From Siphonodentalium dalli (taxonomy: Eukaryota; Mollusca; Scaphopoda; Gadilida; Siphonodentaliidae), in assembly GCA_032622095.1 (NCBI GenBank), contig CP136068.1:49160443-49224442 (forward strand): DNA of 64,000 nt, given 5' to 3'. A program made the translations under genes and the position numbers. Shown here in pieces: positions 14,177-60,000 of the stretch (the first letter of the stretch is position 1; the number at the start of each line of letters is the position of its first letter). The notes under the pieces are model-generated. The model was not told the origin of the DNA. It did not search any database and was given only the letters and a program-made list of their open reading frames with translations.

Positions 14177-14355
14177 ATGGGACTATTACCCCTCAATCAG
14201 GCACAGCGGGACAACCGTGACCTGAGCTCTTGTGACCATTTCAACAAATGTCAGAATACCACAGAGTTGATAATGGATACGCTGGTAGATACGATAGAAG
14301 GAAATGTCAGCATCATCAACAACTCATCCGAGAAAGGAAGTCTGGAGATTATTAG
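14177..14355 (+). CDS. MAP3K14-like: Kinase gene exon 1 (coding part)
   Basis: Residues 1-59 plus two bases. Starts MGLLPLNQAQ and ends at ATTAG|GTATAT. Joining AG to the A of exon 2 makes Arg. No domain recognised. Confidence 0.75.
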
Positions 14356-27000: not shown

Positions 27001-30000
27001 GCGGAAACCCTGGCTTAGGCCTCATCTTCTCTGTAAAGTTTCTTTATTATAAAATTTCACATAGATTCTATTTTTATTTAATTTAGTTTCTCTATATCCC
27101 CAAATTGACAGATGACACATTGCATAATCGAGGTTTCCCAGAATGTCGAATCCGGTCCATGATATTATATTTTGATATTTTGTAATTTATGTTATTGTAT
27201 TATTCATGGAATAAATACTGTTTAAACCAATGTGGGATAGCATCACTAAATTCACCCTCTGTGGAACTCATTCTGCAAATGACAGGCACACTAAACTCAG
27301 GCTTGTAAGTGGTGCCAGGAAAAGATATAAATTTAGCTAACCATTATTTATTTTCTTCTGACCTTTGACCTATAACTGTTTCAGCAAGAGAATTTATTAA
27401 GCTTCTGGACCCGATTGAAGAAGATGATCACATAAAAGAAGATAAACCTCAGGCAATCAGAAGTAAATGGCCGTATGTGTGGGATGAATCATTCAAGAAA
27501 ATGCTACATGGTAAAGGCACACATCGCCACACCCATAAATCCATAAATTGGGGCAATTTCCGCGCTTATGACTAGTCATCGATCCACACCGTTAAATTAA
27601 TGTTTAGTCTGCACGCAAGGAAATGGGGTATGTTGAATTGACATTCGGCATTTTCGTTGTTTATGTATAGCTATTTTTTAGCTACATTTTGTGTACAAAT
27701 AATATGTAAGCAATTTAGGCAAGCCTTGAAATAGTGTGTCTGTCATTTGCAGAATGAGGTCCCCAGAGGGTGAATTTAGTGATGCTACCCCGCATAGCAT
27801 AGCGGGCTAGCATCACCAAATTCACCCTCTGGGGACCTCATTCTGCAAATGACAGACACACTATTTCAAGGCTTGAATTTAGGCATTGTGCTTGAACTTA
27901 CTTTTTACTGAATATTAATTATACGCACTAAACAAATTTGGTATATCAAAATATTGAAATCTAATGAACAGGAGTTTTAATAATCACTTTAAATCTCACT
28001 TGATCATAATATTTAGTTTATATAACTTGTATGTACTTTCCAGATGATGGAGAGCAAGATTTGTCAACTTACTCCAATGGTAAATCCTCTCTACCATCTG
28101 GTAACTTCAAATGTCGACAAACGCCAGGAGGATCATCATCCAATCAAACCAAGGGTGGGGGAGATAACTCCGGTAACAGCGGATCGAGTAACCAGGCTAA
28201 CTCATCGAATGTAAGAATAGATAAATCATACGACTTACTTATCATTATTCACATTTTTGTAGACTTGTTATATGCCCATTTGGAAAAACGGTCATATTAT
28301 ATTATAACAATTATACGGAAAAAATAATTTCAATGTGACAAACTTATTATAGCCCCACTTTCGAAGAAAATGGGGGGTATACTGAATTGACTGCATCCGT
28401 CCGTCGTTCCGTCGTGCCGTCCGTCATAAATATAAGCGGGGAAAAACATATTTCAGCTAGTATAGTATTTATACTTGATCTTGTGCTCTTTTTGTAGTGA
28501 TGTAGTAATTTAGTGAAAATGTATCGTGTTTCAACTCCTTCCAAGAAATGTAAGATTCTTACTGAACACATGGTGACAGTTCTAGAAAAATTGCTATAGA
28601 CTTTGGTGTTGATAAAACTCAAATTCAGTCCATTGTGAAGGACAAGGATATGATCAAACACGAGTGGGAGAATGGTCATCAGGCGAATCGAAAGTATCTG
28701 AAGCCTATAGGCGAACAACATACGGCGACCTCAACGAGCGAGTCTGGAAGTCGTTTTGTGTTGCGTGCAGCAAAAATGTTCCTATGACCGGTCCACTGAT
28801 ACAGAATGCTGCCATCAAAGCCTCCCTTGAGATGAATCATGATGATTTCATGGCTTCTAACGGCTGGTTGGAGAGTTTCCGGAATCATTATAACATTATG
28901 TGGTCTGTTTTAAGCGGGGAAGGTGCGGCTGTAACGAATCTACAGTCGACAATTGGAAACAACGCCTTCCAGCAATCACTGCTGGATATGACCCAAAGGA
29001 CATCTTCATTGCCGACGGGACGGGCCTCTTCTACCGAGGACTTCCAAATTGTTCCCTGGTTCATAAAGCTACTGATAGCAAGAAAGTTATTAAGCAAGCC
29101 AAAGAACGTTTGACAGTGCTCCTTGCTTGTAATGCGGATGGAGAAAAACTGGACCCAGTTATCATCGTTAAATCGTCGAATCTGCGATGTTTCCGTGGTG
29201 TACATGTATCTACTCTGGGAAGTGTTAAGGAAGCCACGATTCAAAAATGTTACGAGAAATGTGGGTTCAGTGTTAAGTTGTGTAACCGAGGACGACGACG
29301 TGCACGAAACAGACAACGAAAAGTTCAAAGAAGTGCTGAATGGAATGACAATGACCGAATATGCCAACATTGACAAGGACTTACCGCAATGTGACGATTC
29401 ATCTAACCCAAATTGGAAAGATAACATTTTGTTGGGCAAAAATGAAACAGATGCACAAGACAGTGACGATGAGTGTGCCGTTGGAGATAGCTGTTCAGAT
29501 TCTGCGGATCCAAATATAAACATTCCATCGCACGGCGAGGTTCTAGATATGTTAGAAAAACTTAAATCATACAGTCTTCACCATCGTTTAGGAGATGTAC
29601 TGCAGTTTGCAGCAGCCACTGAATCGGCGATAGAGAGTAAACAATTAGACAATAAGTTGGCATGTCAGTCAAAACTTGAACGATTCTTTAGTTCAAAGTG
29701 ATTGTACTTCGAATGGCATTCAACGAATTGAACATGCAAACACTTTGAACTAAACTGAAATTGACTTGCCAACTTATTGTAAATGACCATGCTGACAGTC
29801 CAAGGGCAATAACTCTATTATACCTTTGATAAACATTTTTTCATATAAATCACCCAGTGAGACCCCCAATTATGATCACCCATGTGCCGACTAAATGGCC
29901 TTGACATTGTTTCTTTTTTTTAAAACAATCAGCTCATTTTTTAGGTTAATTTGCACGTTCTTCAAGAGATAACTTTTACTGTTCATTTCCATATTGGGGA

Positions 30001-33000: not shown

Positions 33001-36000
33001 ATATGCACTTTGTATCATATTGGTGTTATCAAGTCCTCCTGCAGTTTGTAATATAGGGATCTGAAAACTTCCACCTTCGTCGGGGGACATTTTGGTCAGC
33101 GACCTTTTATTTTCTCTACTCAGTCTGGAGGTGATGGTGAAGGTGATGACGATGATGAAAGAAAGCCTCGACGGAAAAGTGATGACTTCAGTAACGATCC
33201 TCCAGATGACTATAAATCTTACAGAAAGAAACACGCTAAAGTGTCTGTGTCTCAACTACCAGAGCTTCTTGGGACACTGGTGAGTTTAGTACCACAGTAA
33301 AACCTCTCCAAACTGGACCCTCTATAAACCAAATCACTTTCCATATGGACCAAATTGTTCTGTCCCGAATTCCCCCAAGTGCATTCTCACTAAAAATCAC
33401 CTCTGTAAAACGGAAACTCTCTATTACAGACATCGAACAGCTTTTCTAGTCCAAAAGTGAACAAATACATAAATATTTACCTCCGAAATCCGAACGCGGA
33501 AAGCGATACCAACCGAACGCACATGCAGTAAATTTGACATACTTGATGCTTAGCTCGTGTTGGCTCTATTGTAGACTGGGGATCCTTTCTAAGTTTAAAT
33601 TTCTGGTCTATACATTCAACTCGTGAATGGTCTTGATGGCTCATTCATTTTGACAGGTTGATTAAAACTTTATTGGTGACAATACACTACCATCTTGTAC
33701 TTTTAGCTAATTAGTGTTTAGTTTGGACAGTGGTCGTAACAATAAGAGGCCAGTTCAGCTCAGTGATGGATGTAAAAACCTAGTGTCAGCGCTGTATTAT
33801 CTGTGAAGTCACCATTGTTCACTCAAAGTGTTAAATAAGCATACAGTTATCTAATCAGACAGCTGCCATTATCATCCGGTTCAAAGCAATCGCCGAACAA
33901 AACACCGCTAATTAAATTGGTACGAATATTCAATAGTACAAAACTACTATACTAATGATGTGACATTTTTTAGCGACATTAAAATCACCGTAAAATTTAC
34001 CCTTTCCATGTTTCCTGTCTTATGATATCTATACATGCATTACATCTTATTAGACCATGTTTTAATTATACCCCCAATTTCGAAGAAAATGGGGGGGTAT
34101 ACTGGATTGACTGCGTCCGTCCGTCACGATTTCTCCCTCCGTATGTCCGTCCGTCCATCCATCCGACCTCATAACTCGAACAACTATGAACCGATTTCAA
34201 TAAGTTTTTGTATGCAATCTCCTTAGGACTGCCTCTCCGCATAATGCTAATTGCGGTTCAGTCCGACTTTTTGTCCCCCGAAAAATTTATTTTTGGGGGA
34301 CTATAGAAACGGGCTCCGTCCGTCCGTTCGTCCGTCCGTCCGTCACACTTTTGAGTACCTTCATGGTGTAATCATCTCCTCCTACAGATTTCATCCCAGA
34401 GATTTGAAACTTCAGAATATTGTTGCCCATATATTGAAGATGTGCAACATGTATATAGATGACGGAAAAATTATTTTTTGACTGAGTTATTAACCCTTTT
34501 CGACTTAGAAAATTTCAACCTTTTTTTATAATTGTCTGTACGAGGGTACCTCGTGGTGTAATCAACTCCTCCTACAGTTTTCATCCTAGAGATTTGTAAC
34601 TTCAGAATATTGTTGCCCATATATTGAAGATGTGCAACATGTATATAGATGACGGAAAAATTATTTTTTGACAAGAGTTATTAACCCTTTTTGACTTAGA
34701 AAATTTCAACATTTTTTATAATTTTCTGTATGAGGGTACCTTCGTGATGTAATCAACTCCTCCTACAGTTTTCATGCTAGAGATTTGTAACTTCAGAATA
34801 TTGTTGCCCATACATTGAAGATGTGCAACATGTATATAGATGACGGAAAAATTATTTTTTGACAAGAGTTATTAACCCTTTTCGACTTAGAAAATTTCAA
34901 CATTTTTTATAATTGTCTGTATGAGGGTACCTTCGTGGTGTAATCAACTCCTCCTACAGTTTTGATCTTAGATATTTGAAACTTCAGAGTATTGTTACCC
35001 ACATATTGGAGATGTGCAACATGTATATAGATGACGGAAAAATTATTTTTTTACGGAGTTATTATTATTAACCCTTTTCAACTTAGAAAATTTCAACATT
35101 TTTTTTTTTAAATTTCTTCAACAAAGCGGCATCGACTTGCCACCTTTTCGGGGGACACTGTGGTCTGCTGACCTTTTATTGTTTTTAAGTTACGCCTCAT
35201 TTACGACTTATTTTGACTTAGAAAATTCTGTCAGACTTAATAACTTTAACAAATATGAACCGATTTCAATAATTTTATGTATGCAATCTCCTTAGGACTG
35301 CCTCTCCGCATGATGCTAATTGCGGTTCGGTCCGACTTCTTTTTTTAAAGTTACGCCTCATTTTCGACTTATTTTGACTTAATAACTTTAACAAATATGA
35401 ACCGATTTCAATAATTTTTGGTATACATGCTTCTCACAATACCCTCTCTACATGATGCAGCTAGGGATTGGCTCAGACTGTTTTTCGTAATATTACACTT
35501 CATTTTCGACTTATTTTGACTTAGAAAATTCTGTCAGACTTAATAACTTCAACAAATATGAACCAATTTGAATAATTTTTTCTGTACAAGCTTCTTGTGA
35601 CACCATATCGATATATTATTAGTCCGAATTTTTCTTTAAAGTTAAAAATCTTTTTTGTTGGGTTTACGGATAATGCGGGTTGAATTTGCCACGGTGGGGG
35701 TATGCTAGCACTCGAGTGCACACCTCTTGTTATATTACATGTTTTATATATTGTTATATATATTAGTTGGTACTTTATTGAATGCAGTTTAATTAATCAA
35801 TAATGAGTTGGTTGTACTTCTTGGATTTTACTCTTTGCATTACTAAATCATTTGACACACCCTACAGACCACATCGTTATATGATTGTCACCAAACTTCA
35901 TATGGATCTCTTGAGTGACCATTAGATGAAAGCCATCTGAATGTCTTTGAAAAACATGGCCACGACCATCTTGGATTTTACTCTTTGTATTACTTAATCC

Positions 36001-39000
36001 ATTGGCACAGCCTACATACATTACTCGTCAGACCATCACTAAACTTAATATGGGTCTTCCGGATGACCTCTAGATGGGAGCAGGCTTGGGGCAATTACTT
36101 GTGAATGTAATTAATTACAATTACAATTACTTCAACATTTTTCAATTACAATTACAATTCCCATTACATCTATTTCACAATGTAATTAATTACAATTACA
36201 ATTACTTTGAAATGTAATTCAATTACAATTACATTTCAGCACAACATTGAAATAGGAACACTTTTTATTTATATAAACTCTATTTGATAACAAAACATAA
36301 ATTTAATACAAGCAAGATGAAATACACAGTGAAGCACACTTGGTACAGAGCAGCCAATGTACTGAGTCCAGTATAGGGGTTCGTAGAACTGAGCGAATCA
36401 TGATTTATAGCTGGTAATTCCAGCGTGTTGCATTGACAGCTTGTAGTCGGGGTTGATCTTCTAGAAATTGGAATGATATCAGAGATTTATAAACTTTGCT
36501 AACTATTTTCAATGCTTTGGCATTCTTGACCGATGTTTTTGCATACTGAAAGATACTAGTAGGTTGTTGATCACTTGCTGATGGTGATTGTGTGACTGTG
36601 GATTCATAGACATCTTGATGCTTTCGCTATAAATTGAAAATAATAGAGTATTTTAGTAACACACATGTATCCATCATATAATTATTAAGGGAATAAGACT
36701 ATCTCAGTAAGCCAGACACACAGCCAGGCCAATTGTAAAGGACAATGAGATAATCAACACTCTGATTGTTGAGTCATAAACTTAATTAGCCTTTGTGGCC
36801 ACCAGCTTACTGGTAACACAATGCCTCCACTAGACAGTGCTAATTGGGGGATTATTGAGGCAGATATTTGTCCCCACTTTGTCATTCAGTTGCAAATTAG
36901 AAGGGACAAGAAACAATGCATATACCAATACCACCATATGACTGACGTTATATGTCAATGGAATTAAACAAAACTAATACATAGAAATGGAAACTTACCT
37001 TCAGATGTGTCACAAAATTGGAGGTAACTTTTTTGGAACTGGATATTGTAGTTGGGCAAAGTTTGCACTTCGCTTTCATAGGACACGATGTGTCTTTCGC
37101 CAAATTAAAATGCTGCCCGATTTTTTGTAGACATTAGCAATGGTTGGTATGAATTTCTACCATAGCATATATACCATAACAGATGGAGATAATGAAACAT
37201 GATCATAAGAGTGATATATTATAGTGATCTATTGTCAATTATTTGAAGTTGGTTTCTCATTGTATTTATCAAAACAAGCCTTCTACCTCAAAGGTTAACC
37301 AATGCTTAAGCAAACAAACAGGAGGTGTCAACAGAATTCACCATTGAGACAGTGGATAAAAACTCAGTGTTGTGACAACATAGTGATAGCCAGTCACCAG
37401 TCTAACACTTTGAAATTTGGAAAAAAACATTTGAAGAAACCATTGGATGAATCAAGAAAGAGAACTTTGAGAAGAAACAAGTACCTGTGATTTTGAAGTA
37501 ATTGAAATTAGACCCTAATTACAATTACAATTACATCCTAACCAATTACAATTGCAATTACATGTAATTGAGAATAAACTCAATTACCAATTACATGCAA
37601 TTACTTGGAAAAATGTAATTAATTACAATCAATTACAATTACAAATTACAATTACCCCATCCCTGGATGGGAGTCATAAAATTTTCATAAATTTTGTTTA
37701 AAAATATGGCCAGCTGCAGTCATCTTGGATTTTACTCTTTGCATGACTAAATCCTTTGGGACACCCAACAGACCACATCCCTCACCCGATGTCACCAAAC
37801 TATGTATGGATTTTCGGGTTGACCACTAGATGGTAGCCATACAATTTTTCCAAATTTTGTTGAAAAAAATGGCCTACAGCGGTCATTTTGAATTTAATTT
37901 ATATATATCTCTTCATGTTCACATCTAGTATTACTTAGACATTTCAACTTTTCGCATTCAAAATCACTCCATTGACTGTAACACATGAAATGATCCCCTC
38001 TCCAAGTTGAGCTACAGTGTCATTGACACTTTCATTAAAACATTCAGCCACTGTCTTATTTGGTCACAAACAGCATGAACACTGCTTGGCAGTTTAACAC
38101 TTTTATGTGTTATGCAGTGAAACACTAAAATAAGTCCACAATTTTCTTCAAATTTGTTGAGTCATTGTATCAAACAATTAATGAAGGCCAATGCTGATTT
38201 TGCAGGTAGTCCCAGATTTCACCATTGAGAAGATGTTGGAACACAAGGACTTTCTGGAAATCCTCAACTGTCTGCTGATTTGTGCATTGAATTTCGACTA
38301 CGGATCTGACGAGGATGATGGAAACTGCTTTGTCTGTGTTATGCTGGAGCAATTACTGCGACATTTTGCCAAATGCTTCGATTCACAACAGGACTGTCAT
38401 CTTTGCAAGCAGGTTACCATGCTGACGCTGGGTCATGTTGAAATTTGCTTCGCCGAAGTTGACTCCAGATGTCCGGCTAAATTATGCAGGCGAATTCGGC
38501 ATGCAGTATCCAATCAAATTTCAGTCCTTAGAAGCAAACCTCAGACCGTGATTAGAAGATTGAAAACATATCTACAAGACTGCTTCGGCATCGACATTGT
38601 AGATGTAGAAAGCGTTGTAGAGCCTGATCGTGAATCGGAGGTTCAGTTAGGAGGAATTATTTCATCAATCCTCGGAATAAAGCAACCGGAAGATAGCGGA
38701 GCTATTCTGAGACGACCAACACGCAAGCTGTCAATTAGAAAATCACGGCTGACAAGCATAGTAGAACAGCCAGAAGTCAGCCGCGAACCCAGACTTGAAA
38801 CCGATCCTGCTGAAGTTATATACGAACGAGAACAGGCTTCTATTCGTGAAGAAGTCAAAGAAATTGGATCACTGGCGCAAATCCAAGAAACGGAAACAAA
38901 ACGTCGAGAGATATCTGTTAAGATATATGGCACTGATAGATATACAAGCTTGCCAATGAGGAAACATAACCAAATGATGAGTCCTAATCAGCTGTTGTCG

Positions 39001-42000
39001 CTCACGGATAGACCGACTGGGGTGCCCGGAATCGGGGATATGGTTTACGGTTTCCGTCGGCAGCTGAATAAGGTGGGAGAGCACTGGGTCTTGTTGAAGC
39101 AATACCATGAGGAGGGGCAGGATATCAGGGAGCCCCGTGAGGAGGGAGTCATCCTCTCTGATTACAAGGTATATATCTTCCTAATTTAACCCTTTCTATA
39201 CTAAATCGATTCTCCCATCAGTTATAAATATATACATTGGAATGGTCTATTATTCATTTGGAGGGGTGTTGTAATAAAAGCAGACAGACAGAATTACAAA
39301 ATGATAATAAAAGGGCAAAATAATAAGCTTAGCAAACGACCTTTGAACTTATTTTTATATCCCCCATTCAAAAGATGGGGTGGTATGCTGTATTAAATGT
39401 GTCCGTCCATCCATCCGTTCATTCGTCCGTCCGTCCGCTCATATATCTCAACCGTTGGTTATCGGATTTTGATGAAATTTGGTATGCAGGTTTGGCATCA
39501 GGAGGACTTTCAAAAGAGGGTTCATTGACGTCGTTCACATTTTCCATTCAAGTGTTATCCCAGGTTGATTAAAACCAGATTTTCCATTACCATCAGCAAA
39601 TATTACGTCAGTGTCAACCAATCACAACATCTATCAGCAAAGCGATGCAGCCATTCAGGCGATTGTCGGAATTCCTACACAGCAGTGGATTCAGAACATA
39701 TCTAAAAATAGCTCAATAAATATTCTGTCAAACTTCTATTTGTGTGCTGTGATGTCATACTTGATGGATCGCATGTAGAAGTTATTTATAATGACGGTAA
39801 TGTGACACAGAACTCAATTCGCCAAACACAGTACTACGAAGCTGGTTCGAGTCTGGTTTTAATCAGACTGAAGTTATCTCTCTTTGTTTATCTGAAAATG
39901 TTGAATTTCCCTCCGTTCGCTCATATATCTCAACCATGGGTTATCGGATCGCGATCATATTCGGTTTGCAGGTTTGGCACCAGGAGTGCTTTCAAAAGAG
40001 TGTTCATTGACATTGTTCACATTTCTGTTTGCGAGTTATCCCTCTTTGTTCATCTGAAAATGTTGAATTTCCCTCCGTTCGCTCATATATCTCAACCATG
40101 TGTTATCGGATCACGATCAAATTCGGTTTGCAGGTTTGGCACCAGGAGTGCTTTCAAAAGAGTGTTCATTGACATTGTTCACATTTCTGTTTGAGAGTTA
40201 TCCCTCTTTGTTCATCTGAAAATGTTGAATTTCCGTACTTTTGCTCATATATCTTAGCCATGGGTTATTGGATTCTGTTGAAATTTGGTATGGAGGTTTG
40301 AATGAAGGTTCAGTTATGTTATTATCATTTTCCATTCAAGATTTATCCCTCTTTGTTCATAATAAAATGTTGAATTTGTGTCCCTCCGCTCACATATCTT
40401 TTTAAATTTGGTTTCGGTTCTGCCCATGTTTCAATTGGCACCATGGGGGTATGCCAGCACCCAAGGTGCATCTTCAGAACATTTCATATGGTAACTACTC
40501 GTCAAGGAGTATTTAATATAGAAAGGGTTAAACATAAGCAGTCAATCCACGAAATATTGTACAACAATTAGTTCTCAGTTAATGATCCATTACGGTTATT
40601 TCTAGATAACCTTAATCTGTGTCAGTCACACTTCTAGAAAGCTCACGTGAATGCGGACTGTTTGTCAAGATGCCAGTATTGTTGATTGCAACCAACACTG
40701 TGATAAAAAATTAACTTATTGAGGACCATAATTGTGATAACAATACACAGACCTGGCTGTTTTTCGAACTCGAAAAACTCAACCAAAAATAGGCCAGTCA
40801 GTTAAACATTCATTAGAGGTGCCACAATTATTGATTTTGATAGTCGATAATCGGTCGTCAATAATCGACTATAATCGATTAATCGTAGCTGGTACCTAAT
40901 ATTAATAACATCAGTGGAAGTATTCCGTAATATGGCCTATTGGCCGGGTTCTGGTCAACTGCTGTCGCTGGTTGTTTCAAGCTTTGGCTGATGTAATTGT
41001 TAGATTAATAAAGTGGATCATAAACCACCGGTGATGACTAATGAGCACAATGTATTCAATACCAGCACAGTTATTTTGGTGATGTCATGGTTTGTGAATT
41101 CATTAGGACGAAAGTAGCAATTAATTTCAGTGTTATGAATAATCAAACATACAAACAATAATGCACGACGGACCACCGGCAGTTCCTAAAAAAGGGAATC
41201 TAATGTTACGGAAACTATAAGTTTCAGCAAACTTCCAGAGCATTGATAACAATCACAAAGTTGGGCCCCACCCGCAAATTTCAGGACTGAGAACAAGATA
41301 TGTATTTGATAATAGTGAGATTCATTTGCTAGTCACCACATGATAATCAATAGCCTGTACTAGTAACATATAAATATACGCAAACAAAGTATACTCGCAA
41401 ATGACATCGCGGAGAACACCGCTGATTAAAATGCCATTCATGTATATGTTTCGGATATCTTGTAATTATGAGGAAGTATTGCTGAAGAATTATTAAAGGG
41501 ATACAGTTCAGTTGCATTTGGGATCATCAATATGATATATATGAACAATGTCAATCAACTCCACATTGGTCTAATCTAGGGCGAGTGCATTCAGTTCGCT
41601 GAACACGATGACATTAGGCACATTTTGAAGATATAGTGCCGCCTTTCTTGTAGAAATATACAACGACGTCGCCATAAGTCCAAGGCTTCTGTGCCGACCA
41701 TTTATAGAATATACGACCCGAAGAGTAACCACGTCACATCATCAAATGAACTGCCGACTGTTTGCAACATATTAGTAGTACTCATATTGTCCGAATCTCT
41801 TTGATACGCGAACAAATGTTGTTAACATCTTGGTTGTAGATTAAACTGTGTAAAACAAACACGGTATTCAATAATACCTGTTTTTTACCCGAGATTAATC
41901 GACGACGGAAATGGTAATCGATTATCGGCTTTATCAACGGTTCATCGATTATACGATTAATCGTGGTACCTCTAACATTCATGATATTAAAATATATTTT

Positions 42001-45000
42001 TGGTCAAGTTTTTCAAAGGTTTTTGAGTTCGAAAACTGGCCAGGTTCATGTATTGTTGTCACAATTATGGTCATCAATAAGTTATTTTTCGTGATTTTGA
42101 TCCCGATAGCACGATAACTTGAACAAATATCAACTGATTTTGTGAATATTCGATATTTGAGACTTGGTGAACAATTTTCGTGATTTTGATCCCGATAGTA
42201 TGATAACTTGAATAAATATCAACTGATTTTGTGGATATTGGATATTTGAGACTTGCTCCACAATGTATGTCAGACTTCCTCAACAGTCTTGTGCATGATA
42301 CCCAGTTACGATTAATTAATTTTCAATACAAGCCCATGTTTCACGTTGCTACCGCAACTCGACCCCACATCTCTGTTGAGAATTCTCTGTTTGTTTTTTA
42401 GAATGATATGCTGATATCCAAGACGAGATACCAGCTGGATGTTCAGTGGCAGAAATCTATTCACCTTGGGAACGGAATGTCAGGGAAGTGCTTTCTTGCT
42501 ACCGATATGGACACCGAATATCAGTTCTGTGTCAAAGTGGTTAGTTTAAGCTTCATATGTTCAAGAAGGCGAAGATCTGGCTAATTCTCCATTGATATTA
42601 TTACAAATGTTTTCATAACTTATTATTCAAGAAATTCAAGAAATTAAGTTACATCTTGAAACACATAAGGCATAATGTGCAGGGATTCCACTGGAGAGGC
42701 AGTTGGTCCCTTTCCCCTACCCCAAATTTCCTCTCCGACACATTCCCCTACCTGATCCACAGATTTATACCTATATGACGTGCACAGTAATGCCATAAAT
42801 AATCGACTCCTTATCCACAGCATAATTATGGGTAATTTTTCAGGATTTAGTCGGAAATATGGCTTGTTGCCATTCATCGGAAATCTCAGTAACAAGCCAT
42901 ATTTCTAGACATGGCCAATTAGTTTTATTTAGTGGCAGATACAGTAATGCCCTAAATAATTGACTCCTTAATCACAGCAAAATTATGGGGAACTTTTCAG
43001 GATTTAGTCGGAAATATGGCTTGTTACTGAGATTTCCGATGAATGGCAACAAGCCATATTTCCGACTAAATCCTGAAAAGTTACCCATAATTCTGCTGTG
43101 ATTAAGGAGTCGATTATTTAGGGCATTACTGTATCTCCCACTAAATAAACCAATTGGAATGATATATGTAGCTAATGCTGACCACTAGTTAACCATTTTA
43201 CTTTTAAAATATTTTCAAGAATACACATATTAAACATTTATTGCATTGTTTCGAGGTTGACATGAGGATTTATCAACCCAAGGAAGTTAATATTCACCGA
43301 GGCCACATGTGCGGAAATTACTGAATAGTCATCGGAATGCCATTGCCCGTACAGTTGGTCCTAATTTCATGCCCCCTCATGATTAGAGACACCATTAGAA
43401 TCCATGGTTGACAGTCCTTCCTCGTCGCTGATCGAAATGATCTATCTAATGATAAAGGGATGTTATTTTACATTGCACCAGAAACGTTTCATCTTGACAA
43501 CATCTGCTTTAAAATCAAGCTAACTTGATATGTTGCTGTCCCGATTTGTGCTAATTATGTAGACGAGATATCAGCGATTTAAGGTTTCTCAGTTCTAGGT
43601 ATATGTTCTAATATATTTCACCTCACCCAGAAAATGTCGCCTTCTGATTGGCTGAGAGCTGTGTCCTATATGGTGTAGTATTGTGCTAAATTTAGCACAC
43701 TACTATACTTGTTTAGTGTTGTACTAAATTTAGCATACTACTATACCAAACGCACATGTAAAAAGTAATGAGCAGAGGCAACAATCTCAAGAACAGATAT
43801 ATGCAAATGAGAACAACAATTTACTAAGGCGTTTCCAAATGGAACAACGTCAACTTGCGAAGTGGTAAACATTCAGTTGAATTCACCTTGTGGTACAGTT
43901 TCAGGTTTTCGTTCATTAACCCTTTACCCAACAGAATGGCCCTGTGCCAATGCATTCTCTTATTTTTTAGGCCAATGCATTCTCTTATATATGCGAGGCG
44001 ACCTATGGTCGACTCGCATATATAAGAGAATGCATTGGCACAGGGCTAACTGTAACTATCACAATGTGGTCAAGGAGCCGGTTCCAATGATATCCTTATT
44101 TGTATGGTTCTATTGAGACAGACCGAAGATATTTTAGGCTGTTAAAGCTTTATTTGGCCGGTTTTGGCCGTTTTGTTGGGTAAAGGGTTAAAAAAATCTA
44201 AATAATGCATGTCTCGGTTTATTGAACTAGACATAAACACATCTTTGTGACGATTATGTCTCTCGTAAACTGTTTATTGGTAAGTGGATAATCATATTTG
44301 TTCTTTGAGTAGTATGTTCTATTAACATGCTATGAAGGGAATTTAACAGTCCCTCAGTTAGTGTTGGTAGAATACAGTTATGAAGTATACATGCTTCAAG
44401 TTCGAATTGTTCAGTGAAATATAATGAATAGAGAATGTCTTGTCATTGACTACAGTAATGCCCTAAGTAATCGACTCCTTAAACACAGCAGAATTATGGG
44501 TAACTTTTCAGGATTTAGTCGGAAATATGGCTTGTTTCCATTCATCGGAAAGCTCTCCCCGATGAATGGCAACAAGCCATATTTCCGACTAAATCCTGAA
44601 AAGTTACCCATAATTCTGCTGTGTTTAAGGAGTCTATTACTTAGGGCATAACTGTACGTGTCTATTGTGCCCAGTGGAGTGGGTATAGTTCAATCCGCTT
44701 CATGTCGGGAACTATACCCACCCCACTGGGCACTAGACCCATATAGTCAAATCCAAGGCATGCTCTATTGAATATAAAACATTCTTGGTTTTTCTTTAAA
44801 TTATCGTTTTTAAATATTTCAGGTTCATATCAGCAATTTTGAAGTTGGGGAGTTGGAAATTTGCAGTGACATGAATCATATCAATATAGTGAAGATGTAT
44901 GGGGCACTTAGAGATGGCGAGCACATCTACATGTTCATGGAATTTGTTGATGGTTTGTACACAATTTGGTTTTTTATATGCCCATTTTATTTTTGTCATA

Positions 45001-48000
45001 TTAAGTAATCAGTCTGTCCGTCCATCTGTCCATCCATCTGTTAAATTTAACTTGATAACTCCGGTTTGGATTATTAGATAAGAAGAAAAGTTAACTAGCA
45101 TGTTTCTAATAGACAAAAGTACAGCCCAAGTTCAAATGTGGGTTCCATCCAATTATTTTTACATGAAATGGGGTTCTTTTTTAGCTCAACTTTACTTTGT
45201 AAAGTTTGAGCTATTGCCATGGCTTTGTCGTCCGTCGTCCGTGTGTGCGTAAGGCGTCAACAATGCAGGCTACAGGTCGTTCCTTTGGTCGGATCATTAT
45301 GAAATTTGTCATGAATGTTAATAATGACATGTAGATGGGAACGAGTCATTTTGGGGTCATTCGGCCAAAAAACATGGCCGCCAGCAGCCATCTTTGATTT
45401 TACTCTTTGTATGACTAAATCCTTTAGCACGGGCTACAGGTCGTACCTTTAGTCTGATCATCATAAAATTTGTCATGGTTGTTGAAATTGGAATGTAGAT
45501 GGGAACGAGTCATTTTGGGGTCATTCGGACAAAAAACATGGCCACCAGCGGCCATCTTGGATTTCAAAATTTAATCCATTAGCACAGGCCACAGGTCGTA
45601 CTGTTCGTCTGATCATCATGAAATTTGTCATGGATGTTAATAATGACATTTAGATGGGAACGAGTCATTTTGGGGTCATTCGGCCAAAAAACATGGCCGT
45701 CAGCAGCCATCTTGGATTTTACTCTTTGTATGACTAAATCCTTTAGCACGGGCTACAGGTCGTACTTTTAGTATGATCATCATAAAATTGTCAAGAATGT
45801 TAATAATGACATGTAGATGGGAACGAGTCATTTTGGGGTCATTCGGCCAAAAAACATGGCCGCCAGCAGCCATCTTGGATTTTACTCTTTGTATGACTAA
45901 ATCCTTAAGCACGAGCTACAGGTCGTACCTTTTGTCTGATCGTCATGGATGTTAACGATGACATGTAGATCGGAACGACTCATTTTGGGGTCATTCGGCC
46001 AAAAACATGCCATCTTGGATTTTACTTTTCTCTTCATGTCTATAAACTAGTATTAGACATTCAACTTTCCACATTCCTAATCGCTCCATTGACTGTAATA
46101 CATTAAATTATTCCCTTTCCATGTTGAGCTACAGTGTCATTGACACTTTCATTTACTTATAATTTGCCCAATTTCATAACATTTTAGCTTCCGACTGATA
46201 ACTCCAGTTTCCATTATTTAATAAGAACCACAGTTGATATGTGTGTTTCATAGGGTCCAATTATTTTTTTTAAATTAATTTAATTAAATTTTTGTATTTA
46301 TGATGAAGATTATGTAATATTATGAGCTTCTATTTATGTTTATTTGATGAAGATATATACCGAAACAAAAGAGTAATGAAAACAGAGTTCTATACAGCTA
46401 ATGTGAGATACATGCATAAAATAATACAACACTTTTAACAGCTGAATAATAGTGGCTGTATTTGAGCACGCAGACTATAGCCAGCTGTAGCCTGCCGGCT
46501 GTGGCTTATAAGACATGAGCAGTAGAAAGCTACAGGTGCCATGGAAATAAACACATCCTGTGAAAAATATAGAGTTTCCCTCCCCTTCTATTGTTTACAT
46601 TGTCTTGTCAGTCATTTTTCACTTATGCAGTCACCTGTGAAGTGTCCATGTTTATACAGCATTTTCACACATCATGACACAATCATGGCTTTGGGAGAGT
46701 ATGAAAATCAATTAATGTTGTCACCCTGCAATCAAAGTGCATCTTCATCTGTCCATTTTACTGAGGAAAATTTGGATGTATTTATTGGGGGCACATACGG
46801 GAGAAATTGGTGCTTATTCATATTTTGGGGTTTTTCACTATGGCAATCCGGGAGTCTCACGAACAATCTGTGAAACTTAACAGCTCTGATGGGAGCCGTC
46901 AAATTATTTCCGAATTTAAAAAAAAAAAACATGGCCACCAGCAGCCATCTTGGATTTTACTCTTTGTATGACGAAATACTTTGGCACACCCTACAGACCA
47001 CATCCCTCATCCGATCGTCATCAAACTAAATTTGGATCTTTGGAGTGACCACTAGATGGGAGCTATCACTTTCTTTTCAATTTCATTGGAAAACATGGCT
47101 GCCAGTGACCATCTTGGAATTTACTTTATATATATATCTCTTCATGTTGACATATGGTATTACTTTATATATATATCTCTTCATGTTGACATATGGTATT
47201 ACTTTATATATATATATCTCTTCATGTTGACATATGGTATTACTTAGACACTTCAACTTTCTGCATTCCTAGTCGCTCCATTAACTTTAACACATGAAAT
47301 TATCCCCACTGCAAATTGAGCTACAGTGTCACTGACACTTTCATTACGACCCTCATTCAGTTGATTTAATAATAATTTATAAGCAAACTAATGGGTGTGT
47401 CTAGCCACGCCCCAGTGATTCTCTTGTTTCATAATAAGCTGCAGTAAAATATTACATATATGTTTTCGAACATTGATCATTTCTCCTGCCACGTTTATCT
47501 AACCACATGTGAGCTTCTTTTAGCCAATCAGAATTTTGTTTAGTCACATTTTTTGTGAGTTGGATTTTATAATAATTCAGGTGGTTAATTAAAGTGATAT
47601 GACACACTCCGGCAGGGTGATAAAATAGAAATGGAGAATAATATTCACAAATATTATATCCAAATTGACAGCCCACACCGTCATTTTTATATATTAATTA
47701 CATGCAGTGAACTTTGATGGCGAAATCGTTTTCATTAGTATATCACTAATAGTTGCATCCCGAATTGAGATGTAAATATTTACAATTGAGTGTAGTTTCG
47801 ACGATGTTTTCTATGGAGTGGTACGGTCGATTTGCTTGAGATTTTCGGCAATGTTAGTAGAATACTATATTCATCCAGTTGGCATAGCATCTGAATACTA
47901 ACTTAGCAGTTTCATGGCACCTGAACAAGTCCATAATATACCTTTAATATTAACCCTTTCGTAGCTGAATTATCACTGATGTGTAGTTGCTTGATTCAGG

Positions 48001-51000
48001 GTATCCAGAATTGTGTATATCGACCTCCTACATGTTTGTACTAAGATGTCAAAGGTCGAGGAGTCCAGAGAGGAATGCTCCTATGTACTCTACTTATGAT
48101 GTAAATGTTATGATATTTCAGGTGGGTGCCTTACGGAGCATATAAATAACCAGAAAGCACTGGGCAGACGTTTCAGCCAACGGACTGCAATGCATTATCT
48201 AAAACAGCTACTCAATGTACTCATCTATTTTAGAAATAAAGGGATCATACACGAGGATCTGAAAGGTAAGCCTCATATACCGGGGATTTAACCCTGTCAT
48301 GGCGGGAGCTGCGCTGGTGCAGCATTAATGACCCTGTTCCAGTGCATTATATTATATATACAAGTCTCTCATAGGGAGCCTCTCATATATAAGAAAATGT
48401 ACTGGCTTGCAAGGTCAAGGTAAATATTGTTAGGCCAGTGCATTCTCTTATATATGCGAGACGCCCTATGGGTGACTCGCATATATAAGAGAATGCATTG
48501 GCACAGGGTTTTTGCAAAAAATCAGGAAGCTCCAGCCATGAAAGGGTTACGGGATCATTCATGAGGGCCTGAACTTACCGGTAAGCCTCATATGATAGGG
48601 ATTTAGGGGGTCATATATGAGGATCTTAAAGGTAAGCCATCATGTTCTGCCGATTTAAGGGATAATTTGAGGGAGGTATGAAACAGTATATGATATTCAA
48701 GGATTGTTTATGATTTTAGCTTTCTGTTGGCTTTAACAGGAATATCGTGAACCCTAAAACTGACTCCAATCCAGTCAGCTTTAGAGTTTTCATGATATTT
48801 TCTTTAAATGTTTTCTCCTAGTCAGAGGATCAAATCACATTGAAGTATTTTAGATTACAATAATGAAAACGTTCTTAAAAATGGTTTACCCAGACCTCGA
48901 AAAATTTCCTTAAAGAAGCATAATCAGAATTAACACTCGCAAATTACTATTTCCTTGACTTCAGGGGTAAAAAATATATGATTCGAGGCGAGAAACCCAC
49001 CCATCAAAGCTCAGAGTGGTCAAATATCGATGTTTGACATCTATTATTTTGTACCACCGATAATTTTTAAGTGGCCCAGTAAACTGTCGACGAGAAGAGG
49101 GTATCGGACCAAGTTGCAGATGAAGATGGATAACTCTAAAATCAAGTGGCTTTTTTTGTGTCAGATATTTGACAAACCAGCAAAATTTCGTTTAACAAAA
49201 TGTTCATAAATAACAGGTTTTTGGGCAATTTTATACTATAGCTGACTGTGGTTAGCGTTATGTTTGGCCAATTACTTGCTTCTGATAACTGAAGCAGCAT
49301 TTCAAAAAATTTTGTTGTTGTTGTAATCTGATGATATGGGGACCATCAAATTGGATTGAGTACCTTTAAAAGTTTTTTAATCTGATTCGCATAGAGTGAA
49401 CCGTGACCTGTACAATAGATTGTGAACCGTGACCTGTATAATAGATTTTGAACCCTGACCTGTATAATAGATTTTGAACCCTGATCTGTATAATACATTG
49501 TGAACCCTGACCTGTATAATAGATTGTGAACCCTGACCTGTATAATAGATTTTGAACCCTGACCTATCCTATGTGAACCCTGACCTGTATAATAGATTTT
49601 GAACCCTGACCTGTATAAAATATTGTGAACCCTGATCTGTATAATAGATTGTGAACCCTGACCTGTATAATAGATTGTGAACCCTGACCTGTATAATAGA
49701 TTGTGAACCCTGACTTATCCTATTTGATCCACAGGTGACAACATCCTCCTGGTAAGAGGTTCAAATCATATTAAAGTGTGTGACTTCGGACTCGCCAGAC
49801 ACGTTGAGATGGGTCTAAGTCTCAAGAAGCTCTCACCCGTCGGGACCCAGACACAGTGGAGTCCAGAGAAGGCTGCGAGTGAGGGCTACAGCTTCCCTGC
49901 CGAGTTGTGGGCTGTAAACTGCACAATCGTACACATACTCAGCACCTATCCTCCTTGGGTCAAGAGATTCCCATTTGCCAAGCTTCTACACTTTGTGGTG
50001 AGTACTCATTCATTTAACTGGATGTGGCTTGTTTGAACGTCAACAATTATTTATATGTAATCAGGTCATTATATGTAGAAATATTCGCGAAACACCAGAC
50101 GTTGACGTTTATACACAGATAAAAATTAGGGATATGGCTTGAGGGTGTCTATTTTGAAGTTTCCAACTGCACCTCCTCCTTTGCACTTGACCAAACTCCC
50201 AATTATTGTTTGCACTGTCCCCCAATCCACCTGTGTTGGAACATTCCAACTGGTACCTCAAGCTATGTAACTGTTCGTTTTTACCAAAAGTAGAAAGTAT
50301 GTTAAATTCCCCCACTAATTAATGGTTGTAAAATCTAACAATTTGAACAATTGCAACCATTATATGGTGTAAAAATTGAACGAGTGTTGTGTCAGGCATG
50401 AAATTTTCAGCTGTTGTAAATTATAACCAAAGTTGGGGGGGCTTTTCCTCCTGGTAAAAATATTGCCGAGGTCGCAGGCTGGAGGTCGTAGCAATTTGCA
50501 AATTTTTACAAACGCTCTTTATTTATACAATATCATGAAGATATGAGAAGGTATATCCTGCCAGCAATCAAGGACTTAATCATTATTTATATATCTTTCA
50601 GATATATGACAAGTCACCTCCCTTGGAAGATGTTCCGAAGGATATTCTACCCATCATTAAGGATTTAATAACGAGAGGCTTCACTGTTGATCCAGATAAG
50701 AGGCCGACACCATTTGATTTGCTTCGTCATCAAGCATTCAACCTTATTGGTATGTACAATGTGCCATATTAGCTAGGAGTCCTGTGAATATTAGAAATAT
50801 TAATTCGATATCCATATCGGTCAATATTATTTTAATTCACAAAAAGAGATAAGCAAAAAGGTGCCAACTGGATTTCATAAAATAGGCATGCACAATTCCT
50901 TGCTTCACATAACTGCAGAACTGCAATATCTACGGATCTGTGACAACAAAAATCTGTAATGAGTAGGCCAGATGTGCAAAATCAGAGAGGAAACGGAATA

Positions 51001-54000
51001 AATTAACACTACCTGCTTTGATGTATCCGAGTGGCGATTTGATGTGATGATTCAATTCAGGGCATAATTGCCGATTCGCAGGACACTAATATTAACAACA
51101 CTTACAGGGTTCTATTTGTTCGGTTGTACATTGCAATTCCCATAACATTTCATGGCAGTTTACAAATAATTTCAGGGCATCTATTCCATTGACTATTTAC
51201 TGAACATATCGTGAATTTAGGAATTTTGTGTTTATGTTATCAGTACATACCTACCAATGGGAAACAGTTCATTCCGATGTTTAACCCTTTGAGTGCCAGG
51301 TCCGATTTTTGTATCAACCCATATACCCTGTGCCAATGCATTCTCTTATATATGCGAGTCGACCATAGGTCGCCTCGCATATATAAGAGAATGCATTGGC
51401 CTAACATTTTTTTTTTTTACAATTTTTTACAATTTTAATAATTTATTCTTATATTCTTAAACAGACTTATTTTGTAGGTTTAGGGCCGATGAGATCGGCC
51501 CCTGGCACTCAAAGGGTTAATAATTTTCTAACTGAATGATCATATGAATTGATTCAATTCGATGTGATTCAGCATGTTTTAGTGTAAGTTTTGTTAATTT
51601 GCTGGCCGATTTAAATGTTATCGAATCATTTGCTCCAGGTGCTTTCACACGCTGCCAATGATTCAAAATGCTTTTGCGTGCATAACACTAACAAAATTAT
51701 TGAACGACACAAACAGATCAGAATTGACCTATAGATAGAAATATTGCAAGAATGATGTAATTGCACCAACTAATTACACCAGAAACTTCCATACCCAACT
51801 GTCATGTCCAAGAAAATCATCTGGGAATATATCACAAACAAGTCTGCAAATCACTGTTTAAGTCTGATGATAAGTATGTCTTTACAACTACCGACAGACA
51901 CTCCCTATCTTCCGTCACATCCACATCCCGAGCTTCAGCTAGCTGCATAAATGCTCCTCGTAGTGGCTGTAGGGCTACACTAAATTGGTTGGATAAACAT
52001 AAGAACTAGTCAAATATGTCATATTTATATACTAAGTATATATATATATATCTCACTCTCTGATAAATGTGTTTTCCATCTATATGCTCGATGCAACGAT
52101 TTGATTGGGGATTCAATTCAAACTGAAGGAGAAATTTCAACCAGAAATTGATGGGATGAACTAATTTTAATTTCAGAGCCCGGCGTTAATGAAAACTACT
52201 ACAGCACTTTCGCAGGCAGCGACTCTTCGATGGAAAAGGACAGATCATTGCCGAATCGACAGAACGAAACTGAAGGTGCATCTGCAGAAATGACAGTGGA
52301 TTCTAAAACAGAAACATCTCAGGAGAGTAGAAATATCACTGAAACTGTCGTTCAACAACCTCGCAAAACCAGCTCAAATATGCCAGCTACTGTCGATGAC
52401 ATGAGCGCAAACGAGAGTACAAATGTCACAGAAACTGTCATCCCAGCTACTGTTGACGACATGAGCTCAAAACATCTTGAGAATATACTCGCTTCTCTGC
52501 AAATTGAGTCAAATGATGAAAGAATACCTGCTAATGAAGAAGTAGCAGAAGTGGGTACCAGAAAGGAGGAGAGCCTAGATCTAGATACGGTAACCATAAG
52601 AGATCCTGCAGATCACCCTCTGTCCACCCCTTGTCTGCCTGCAGATCACCCACCGTCCACCCCTTGTCTGCCATTACTGCCAATCTTTCTTAATGAAGTA
52701 CAATTCACATCTGAGTGTTCGGCATCAACTGTTTGCAGCTCGACAGAAGATGTGGACAGAGTTAACAGTGACGAGCTATTTGAGAGTCGTGAGAGTAGTG
52801 ACGGAAGTAGCCACATGATGTTTGCAGCGTCGGGAGACTCGAAGAAGAATTCCGGAGAAAGCGCGCCAAAACTTTGGTTGGATACGAGTAAGCAGGTTAA
52901 GCACACATTAGCACGAAGCCAGACTTTCCCAACTTCTGCAGAGGGAGCTGAATTTGCTGAAAATTTCAGAATTCCCAGGAATTCATCATTCATAAACACT
53001 TTGAAGTCAGTCGTTTCTGGGAATACAGTCATTTCTAGCAGTAGCACGTCATCAGGCATCTGGTCGACTCCCCCATCAGCTAATGCTTTTGGACCGACTC
53101 CTTCGTCGTCTAGCAGTAGACCACGGAATTATAGTACAGAATCAGGGTTCTATCCAGGTACACCGAACACTGGAAAATCGGCCAATAAACAAGCTGAAGA
53201 AGCCATAAAATGGTGTGAGTATTAACCTTTTAAATGGTGTGAGTATTAACCTTTTAAATGGTGTGAGTATTAACCTTTTAAATGGTGTGAGTATTAACCT
53301 TTTAAATGGTGTGAGTATTAACCTTTTAAATGGTGTGAGTATTAACCTTTTAAATGGTGTGAGTATTAACCTTTTAAATGGTGTGAGTATTAACCTTTTA
53401 AATGGTGTGAGTATTAACCTTTTAAATGGTGTGAGTATTAACCTTTTAAATGGTGTGAGTATTAACCTTTTCTATACTAAGTGGATTCTCCCACTCTGTT
53501 ATTAAAGTATACATTGGAATGGTCTATAATTCATCTGGAGAGGGGTTTTCAGAAAAAATAAGCGGACGACAGATCATACAAGTGCAGAAGGAGTCCTATT
53601 TGTTGAGGAAATGATTCAGTGTTGAACTAAACCCTTTAATGACTGGAGCTTCCTGAAATGTTGCGAAAACCATGTGCCAATGCATTCTCTTATATATGCC
53701 GTGTCGTCCATAGGGCGCCTCACATATATAAGAGAATGTATTGGCCTAACACCATTTAACCTAATCTTGTAAGCCATGTGAGGCTCTCTATGGGAGACTC
53801 ACATATATAAGAGAATGCATTGGCCTAACAATATTTAACTTGATCTTGTAAGCCATGCGAGGCTCCCTATGGGAAAATCACATATATAAGAGAATGCATT
53901 GGCCTAACAATATTTAACTTGATCTTGTAAGCCATGCGAGGCTCCCTATGGGAAAATCACATATATAAGAGAATGCATTGGCCTAACAATATTTAACTTG

Positions 54001-57000: not shown

Positions 57001-60000
57001 GGCTGCGAATAAAATGTTTCGGGACCATGCACGCGGGCCTGAGAAACAGGATATTGATTTTTCTTGGTTTTATTCACACTTTGTATAATTTGCAGTTACT
57101 CGAGATACCAGAGAGCAAGATAAATGAACTAATGATTAGTCAGCATCTGGGTGAACTTCAGCAAGGCATGCAACCGTCAGGTTAGTGCTAATTAAATGTC
57201 ACCCCCATCATGGTCACTTATATTCCCTCTAACCCCATCATGGTAACTTATGTCCCTCAGGGGATGAATTGGCCCCATCATGGTCACTTATATTCTCTCT
57301 AACCCCATCATGGTAACTTATGTCCCTCGGGGGATGAATTGACCCCATCATGGTCACGTATATTCCCTCTAACCCCATCATGGTCACTTATATTCCCTCT
57401 AACCCCATCACGGTCACTTATATCCCTCGGGGGATGAATTTACCCCATCATGGTCACTTATATTCCCTCTAACCCTATCATGGTCACTTATATTCCCCCT
57501 AACCCCATCATGGTCACTTATATTCCCCCTAACCCCATCATGGTCACTTATATTTCCTCTGAGGATGAATTGGCCCCATCACGGTCACTTATATTCCCTC
57601 CGAGAATGAATTGGCCCCATCACCGTCACTTATATTCCCTCTAACCCCATCACGGTCACTTATATTCCCTCAGAGGATGAATTGGCCCCATCATGGTCAC
57701 TTATATTCCCTCCGAGGATGAATTGGCCCCAAAACGGTCACTTATATCCCTCGGGGGATGAATTGGCCCCATTATGGTCACTTATATTCCCTCTAACCCC
57801 ATCACGGTCACTTATATTCCCTCCGAGGATGAATTGGTCCCATCACGGTCACTTATATTCCCTCTGAGGATGAATTGGCCCCATCACAGTCACTTATATT
57901 CCCTCCGAGGATGAATTGGCCCCATCATGGTCACTTATTTTCCCTCTAACCCCATCACGGTCACTTATATTCCCTCTGAGGATGAATTGGCCCCCATCAT
58001 GGTCACTTATATTCCCTCCGAGGATGAATTGGCCCCATCATGGTCACTTATATTCCCTCTAACCAATCACGGTCACTTATATTCCCTCTGAGGATGAATT
58101 GGCCCCCATCATGGTCACTTATATTCCCTCTGAGGATGAATTGGCCCCATGACGGTCACTTACATTGTATATTCCCTCTGAGGATGAATTGGCCCCATCA
58201 TGGTCACTTATATTCCCTCTGAGGATGAATTGGCCCCATCATGGTCACTTATATTCCCTCCAAGGATCAATTGGCCCCATCACGGTCACTTATATCCCCT
58301 CCGAGGATCAATTGGCCCCATCATGGTCACTTATATTTCCTCTAACCCCATCATGGCCTCTTATATTCCCTCTAACCCCATCATGGTCACTTATATTCCC
58401 TCTAACCCCATCATGGTCACTTATATTCCCTCTAACCCCATCATGGTAACTTATATTCCCTCTAACCCCATCATGGTCACTTATATTCCCTCTAACCCCA
58501 TCATGGTCACTTATATTCCCTCTAACCCCATCATGGTCACTTATGTTCCCTCTCACCCCATCATGGTCACTTATATTCCCTCTAACCCCATCATGGTTAC
58601 TTATATTCCCTCTAACCCCATCATGGTCACTTATATTCTCTCTAACCCCATCATGGTCACTTATATTCCCTCTAACCCCATCATGGTTACTTATATTCCC
58701 TCTAACCCCATCATGGTCACTTATATTCCCTCTAACCCCATCATGGTCACTTATATTCCCTCTAACCCCATCATGGTCACTTATATTCCCTCTAACCCCA
58801 TCATGGTCACTTATATTCCCTCTAACCCCGTCACAGTCACTTATATTCCCTCTAACCCCATCATGGTCACTTATATTCCCTCTAACCCCATCATGGTCAC
58901 TTATATTCCCTCTAGCCCCATCATGGTCACTTATATTCCCTCTAACCCCGTCACAGTCACTTATGTTCCCTCTCACCCCATCATGGTCACTTATATTCCC
59001 TCTAACCCCATCATGGTCACTTATATTCCCTCTAGCCCCATCATGGTCACTTATATTCCCTCTAACCCCGTCACAGTCACTTATGTTCCCTCTCACCCCA
59101 TCATGGTCACTTATATTCCCTCTAACCCCATCATGGTTACTTATATTCCCTCTAGCCCCATCATGGTCACTTATATTCCCTCTAGCCCCATCATGGTCAC
59201 TTATATTCCCTCTAACCCCATCATGGTCACTTATATTCCCTCTAACCCCATCATGGTCGCTTATATTCCCTCTATCCCCATCATGGTCACTTATATTCCC
59301 TCTAACCCCATCATGGTTACTTATATTCCCTCTCACCCCATCATGGTCGCTTATGTTCCCTCTAACCCCATCATGGTCACTTATATTCCCTCTAACCCCA
59401 TCATAGTCACTTATATTCCCTATACCCCATCATGGTCACTTATATTCCCTCTTACCCCATCATGGTCTCTTATATTCCCTCTAACCCCATCATGGTCGCT
59501 TATATTCCCTCTAACCCCATCATGGTCTCTTATATTCCCTCTCACCCCATCATGGTCACTTATATTCCCTCTCACCCCATCATGGTTACTTATATTCCCT
59601 CTCACCCCATCATGGTCACTTATATTCCCTCTAACCCCATCATGATCAGTTATATTCCCTCTAACCCCATCATGGTCTCTTATATTCCCTCTAACCCCAT
59701 CATGGTCACTTATATTCCCTCTAACCCCATCATGGTCACTTATATTCCCTCTCACCCCATCATGGTCACTTATATTCCCTCTAACCCCATCATGGTCACT
59801 TATATTCCCTCTAACCCCATCATGGTCACTTATATTCCATCTAACCCCATCATGGTCACTTATATTCCCTCTGAGGATGAATTGGCCACTTCTATAATTG
59901 TATAAATGAGTTAGAGATTATTCCGGGTTCCATATTAATTTTTATGAAATCTAATTTACTTTTTATTTAAAGGCCCACTTTAATTTTGATTATTTTTTGT

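Follow-up and report, generated by a model that had tools for sequence, protein, structure and literature searches.

We analysed a 64,000-nucleotide stretch of the genome of the scaphopod mollusc Siphonodentalium dalli (contig CP136068.1, positions 49,160,443 to 49,224,442 of the forward strand), hereafter called the window, which is intron-rich eukaryotic DNA in which a single plus-strand gene can be traced from ∼14 to 53 kb. Judging from its sequence, the product of this gene is probably a MAP3K with several domains, a member of the MAP3K8/MAP3K14 (TPL2/NIK) group whose N-terminal regulatory part contains a zinc finger resembling the TAZ2 domain of the transcriptional co-activators CBP/p300. 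The finger lies in an exon that we call exon 11, following the numbering of the original prediction, and the kinase domain in the exons after it. The parts are known and their combination is new to us, and we know of no architecture of kinase plus TAZ docking module in vertebrates.

Seven exons between 38206 and 53212, joined at borders read from the sequence (Table 1), encode 940 amino acids without a stop, with start and end phases of 0-0, 0-0, 0-1, 1-1, 1-0, 0-1 and 1-2. Exon 11 is bordered by an acceptor ttttgcag and a donor AAG/gtatat. A codon-plus-splice scan gave it scores of 8.0 (acceptor), 5.5 (donor) and 97.6 (coding), values that constitute no independent test of the seven exons since the codon model was trained on all of them, exon 11 included.

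The finger and the kinase appear to be tied together by the junction between exons 11 and 12. Exon 11 ends with REPREEGVILSDYK and exon 12 starts with NDMLISKTRYQLDVQW. The last 14 residues of exon 11 continue the segment that stands before the kinase domain in human NIK (EGVLLTE) and TPL2 (ESGILLN), and the E-G-V/I-L-L stretch of this pre-kinase segment was found at the exon 11 end; the segment is split across the junction, where the phases match and no stop occurs. When all 55,547 open 14-mers of both strands were scored against the two human segments combined, the exon 11 end ranked first with a score of 41, and this 14-mer ends exactly at the exon 11 donor. A looser test, applied to the 63 peptides that end at a donor between 34.0 and 42.4 kb, also placed it first. 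Counted by hand from the residue preceding the motif Gly, the Trp ahead of the kinase lies at a distance of 25 residues in the window protein, 22 in NIK and 27 in TPL2. Several points weigh against this interpretation of the junction. Its register was fixed after exon 11 had been seen, and exon 11 contains another 14-mer with a score of 39; when the looser test was extended to all 473 donors in the window, a different peptide shared the top score of 54; and of 3,000 shuffled versions of exon 11, 18 attained the junction score, one of them scoring 59 versus 41. We find the junction persuasive because of the exact position of the match at the donor and because the adjoining kinase exon is recognised independently. 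A reading of finger and kinase as separate genes was rejected as the leading one on the strength of the junction segment and the phases, and the earlier claim that the two share one continuous, phase-matched frame is supported by our sequence analysis.

The finger has twelve putative ligands, at exon 11 residues 22, 26, 41, 44, 53, 57, 64, 67, 77, 81, 89 and 94, in the arrangement C-x3-C-x14-C-x2-C-x8-H-x3-C-x6-C-x2-C-x9-H-x3-C-x7-C-x4-C. A TAZ spacing pattern searched against all six frames of the window matched nowhere but in exon 11; this pattern was composed after the sequence had been seen, and among 400,000 shuffles of the 128-residue region none matched it in full and one matched its 8-ligand part. 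The only Pfam family returned for exon 11 up to E 1 was zf-TAZ, both with the first 128 residues (E 1.4e-4, 22.7 bits, profile positions 20-70 of 72) and with the 334-amino-acid open reading frame (ORF; E 0.0013, 19.6 bits). A phmmer search of the PDB with exon 11 yielded nothing but p300 TAZ2 at E values up to 1 (8 of 8 sequences, best E 0.16). As a yardstick, CBP TAZ1 used as query reached TAZ2 chains with E values from 0.00015 to 2.4, indicating that undoubted TAZ domains recognise each other better at best and no better at worst. Exon 11 scored 18.0 bits with a profile of CBP TAZ1, CBP TAZ2 and p300 TAZ2, versus a best score of 14.2 when those 128 residues were shuffled 20,000 times. At sites 2 and 3 the spacings C-x8-H, H-x3-C, C-x2-C, C-x9-H and C-x4-C are as in TAZ2, with which the CKQ and CP residues also agree in the alignment, and nine ligand columns are invariant across exon 11 and the three CBP/p300 domains. 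The Pfam match (residues 39-90) and the CBP/p300 profile match (residues 43-104) span nine ligands each.

Other observations count against a plain TAZ identity. Both zf-TAZ scores lie below the curated gathering cut-off of 25 bits, for which reason we use the label TAZ-like and refrain from assigning the finger firmly to zf-TAZ. The first pair, Cys22 and Cys26, falls outside both profile matches, has spacing as its sole support, and was not aligned by MAFFT to the H-x3-C pair of TAZ domains. Site 1 as a whole reads C-x3-C-x14-C-x2-C, versus H-x3-C, 4 or 12 residues and then C-x4-C in CBP TAZ2/TAZ1, the departures being Cys for His, an acidic 14-residue loop and C-x2-C for C-x4-C. AlphaFold run without relatives predicted helices, but with a pLDDT of 45, and all Foldseek matches had E values above 0.001; p300 TAZ2 ranked fourth among them (E 4.6), a result that lends no support. 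The twelve-ligand, TAZ2-like finger of the original prediction thus holds for sites 2 and 3, its first pair being placed by spacing; the profile check proposed with it gave the expected family beneath the family's cut-off, and the structure check gave helices without a significant fold match. Two zinc sites can be regarded as well supported by the sequence and a third as likely. No NCBIfam model matched exon 11, and zf-TRAF, considered as an identity for the finger, was rejected on its absence among the Pfam matches up to E 1.

The exons from 42402 to 50749 encode a complete protein kinase (Pkinase, E 9.5e-45) in which the catalytic Lys, alpha-C Glu, catalytic Asp, Asn and DFG are all present, so that an active enzyme is to be expected. 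Compared with the PDB, the joined kinase scored highest with MAP3K8 (135.1 bits), followed by MAP3K14 (121.7-125), MAP3K2 (109.2) and PAK6 (101); in the best 60 of 2,462 PDB matches the first 12, at 121.7-135.1 bits, were MAP3K8 (1) and MAP3K14 (11), making TPL2 and NIK its closest relatives among solved kinases. The Arg usual in the catalytic loop is missing in the window kinase (HED) as it is in NIK (HGD) and TPL2 (HHD). A tree of seven sequences split the window kinase, NIK and TPL2 from the four outgroup sequences ASK1, MEKK3, PAK4 and AURKA with a modest ultrafast bootstrap of 81, where 95 is usual. Identity weighs on the other side, being about as high with MEKK3 (31%) as with NIK (30%) and TPL2 (31%). 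Taken together, these comparisons provide moderate evidence for membership of the MAP3K8/MAP3K14 group. Between its two members the rankings conflict: exon 11 end plus N-lobe as query favoured MAP3K14 (45.3 bits) over MAP3K8 (39.3) and Chk1 (30.9), the whole domain favoured MAP3K8, and the tree did not separate the two (support 47). The original description of the kinase as NIK-like therefore survives at the level of the group, while NIK as a firm assignment was rejected since the whole domain scores higher with TPL2. NCBIfam returned 17 generic kinase-type models, all far below their cut-offs.

Upstream of exon 11, the codon-plus-splice scan predicted further exons, seven of which can be joined to the seven described above in a 14-exon model of 1412 amino acids with no stop and compatible phases; the designation exon 11 implies ten upstream exons, where this model has seven. 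The upstream exons were selected by eye, with other candidates (for example, pieces of a transposase) omitted, and for 28044-28210 the frame was taken to suit its neighbours although the best frame in the scan differed. Because exons and frame were chosen by hand, the phase agreement of the 14-exon model is weaker evidence than it appears. Pfam searches of the ORFs around six of the seven upstream exons (all except 14201-14355) gave two weak matches (E 0.052 and 0.16), each of which lies within 16175-16621. At the other end of the gene, a Pfam search of the Ser/Thr-rich C-terminal exon found no family with an E value of 0.1 or less; this exon may be spliced onward from 53212 or may end at an in-frame TAA within the first unit of a minisatellite.

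Table 1. Exons and protein features of the kinase gene, in positions of the window.
Feature	Position	Strand	Evidence or remark
Predicted upstream exon	14201-14355	+	codon-plus-splice scan
Predicted upstream exon	16270-16619	+	codon-plus-splice scan
Predicted upstream exon	19243-19601	+	codon-plus-splice scan
Predicted upstream exon	22073-22175	+	codon-plus-splice scan
Predicted upstream exon	27385-27510	+	codon-plus-splice scan
Predicted upstream exon	28044-28210	+	codon-plus-splice scan
Predicted upstream exon	33124-33279	+	codon-plus-splice scan
TAZ-bearing exon (exon 11)	38206..39168	+	open for 321 codons, phase 0 to 0; Pfam zf-TAZ
TAZ-like zinc finger, 12 putative ligands	38269..38487	+	Pfam zf-TAZ; pattern and profile tests; alignment with CBP/p300 TAZ
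REPREEGVILSDYK, beginning of the NIK/TPL2 pre-kinase segment	39127..39168	+	junction scoring
Kinase exon (exon 12): remainder of pre-kinase segment, Gly-rich loop, beta-3 Lys	42402..42539	+	
Kinase exon: alpha-C Glu through hinge	44823..44952	+	
Kinase exon: to HED catalytic loop	48122..48265	+	
Kinase exon: DFG, activation loop, SPE, part of C-lobe	49735..49997	+	Pkinase 1.9e-12 on ORF 49728-50036 alone
Kinase exon: end of C-lobe	50602..50749	+	
C-terminal exon, Ser/Thr-rich, in phase	52177..53212	+	ORF with stop ends at 53225

Other explanations of this arrangement were considered. The locus could produce two transcripts or isoforms, one halting in intron 11 to give a kinase-free TAZ protein and the other starting the kinase from a different first exon. 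Such an arrangement could draw on the frame that continues six codons beyond the exon 11 donor to a stop at 39187-39189, and on AATAAA signals on the plus strand at 39273 and 39306; we consider it unlikely, however, since AATAAA occurs 125 times in the window versus 123.5 expected from shuffles, the acceptor of exon 12 scores 9.4 in the exon scan, and the NIK/TPL2 pre-kinase segment already starts within exon 11. Scans of intron 11 itself revealed three direct-repeat families and one inverted pair, and a bacterial-type promoter scan gave 15 hits versus 14.6 expected, a count that is not meaningful in an animal.

The finger might also belong to a related but distinct zinc fold, whether TRAF-type or a lineage-specific helical module with two or three zinc ions, that has converged on TAZ within the same kinase gene. 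The sub-threshold zf-TAZ score and the unusual site 1 would fit such an origin, which nonetheless appears improbable given that neither zf-TRAF nor any other zinc family was found at E 1 or better and that the finger agrees with TAZ2 in its CKQ and CP residues and in the way the ligands of sites 2 and 3 are spaced. Minisatellites and transposon fragments within the introns might lead one to regard the exon or the gene as a functionless copy, decayed or recently rearranged in a repeat-rich region; 1412 codons in 14 exons without a stop, matching phases and intact catalytic residues make this very hard to believe. A single multidomain kinase gene with a TAZ2-like finger thus remains our preferred reading. 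A bolder version of it holds that an invertebrate kinase of the NIK/TPL2 group, with a TAZ finger of its own, makes direct contact with a helical partner such as a factor of the Rel or STAT type, so that one polypeptide would combine sensor kinase and transcription-factor docking, and that this condition is perhaps ancestral and was lost from NIK and TPL2; we offer this tentatively, as a possibility that we do not favour.

In the preferred reading the finger would most simply be a docking or regulatory module of the kinase, by analogy with known TAZ domains. It would fold round zinc as a helical docking module and bind an amphipathic helix of a partner, whereby the kinase may be tethered to a particular complex, or freed from it, within an immune pathway of the NF-kB or ERK type. 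Such control would be analogous to that in vertebrates, where NIK and TPL2 are restrained by partner proteins. The suggestion in the original prediction that the kinase may be recruited directly to transactivation domains now appears doubtful: the net charge of the finger core is -3, versus +13 in CBP TAZ2 and +9 in CBP TAZ1. Without its first part the core has a net charge of +2, and when the following basic helix is counted exon 11 reaches +1 versus +17 for TAZ2. Given a basicity far lower than that of the CBP TAZ domains, we did not assume acidic activation domains as the default ligand, and the partner is probably something other than an activation domain of the usual acidic kind. Peptides bound by TAZ domains fold in surface grooves, as RelA-TA2 does on CBP TAZ1, the RelA activation domain being a solved TAZ1 ligand according to one report (PMC3760798). 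For that reason a possible Rel-type partner is directly testable.

The closest known counterparts share some features with this gene and differ in others. Human MAP3K14 has the same kind of kinase domain and catalytic loop and a similar pre-kinase stretch (EGVLLTE...Y..EV.W), and differs in its low identity and in the C-terminal exon of the window protein, which resembles no Pfam family. NIK proper carries a TRAF3-binding motif at its N-terminus and an IKKalpha-binding C-terminus; to our knowledge, vertebrate NIK has no TAZ finger. Human MAP3K8, the top whole-kinase match, shares PPWVKR and PPLED stretches and a pre-kinase ...RYQID, and is set apart by an identity of less than one third; as far as we know, TPL2 has a short N-terminus without TAZ. 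CBP/p300 TAZ2 shares the spacing of sites 2 and 3, the nine ligand columns and the Pfam and PDB matches, whereas the window finger opens site 1 with Cys, has a long acidic loop, lacks the strong positive charge and resides in a kinase, not an acetyltransferase. Outside CBP/p300, a TAZ finger is found in the plant BTB-TAZ (BT) proteins, where the partner domain is BTB and no kinase is known.

The pairing of a TAZ finger with a kinase was not met in our literature searches; UniProt, InterPro and nr were outside their scope, so it may sit there unremarked. Two of the papers that mention zf-TAZ concern an EP300 fusion that loses the domain (PMC5855724) and a CREB-binding-protein-like gene (PMC8748825). 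On the kinase side, a survey of Aplysia immune genes states that neither a NIK nor a TPL2 orthologue was identifiable from InterProScan annotation (PMC9334734), which makes the kinase alone of interest in an invertebrate, and a gene ontology (GO) term for NIK activation is listed in another study as enriched among coral-specific genes (PMC6208414). NIK and TPL2 are central immune kinases. If the pairing is genuine, a docking module from the transcription machinery would be joined physically to a signalling enzyme, giving a connection between NF-kB-type signalling and docking through TAZ domains that can be tested.

Three minisatellites lie near splice sites of the kinase gene. A 23-bp array at 16604-18260 (72 copies by Tandem Repeats Finder (TRF), 31 of them exact to the consensus) begins at the end of the predicted exon 16270-16619, and its unit comprises the last bases of that exon plus a GTTAGTT donor-like site, so that a 5' splice site appears to have been tandemly multiplied. 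The 24-bp array at 53208-53471, at the end of the C-terminal exon, has 11 exact copies, each carrying the donor-like site GTGTGAGT, and its first unit also supplies the in-frame TAA; the array represents either a multiplied splice site or the protein end. The third, a 26-bp array at 49396-49714 (12.5 copies), stops ∼20 nucleotides 5' of the kinase exon that starts at 49735.

Elsewhere in the window, scans with Rfam and for tRNAs gave no hits, and in scans of IMG/VR viral contigs the exon 11 query gave 2 pattern matches and the query 49737-49997 gave 7, none of which was confirmed. Transposase remains of the pogo/Tc5 type lie in an intron at 28616-29370, in two frames (HTH_Tnp_Tc5, E 1.6e-8; DDE_1, E 1.3e-5), and a minus-strand ORF at 864-1199 encodes a THAP domain (25.8 bits against a cut-off of 23.9; E 1.8e-5). 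Long minisatellites with 30/41-bp units and a strong strand skew occupy 57203-59872, where the GC skew is -0.56 at 58001-60000.

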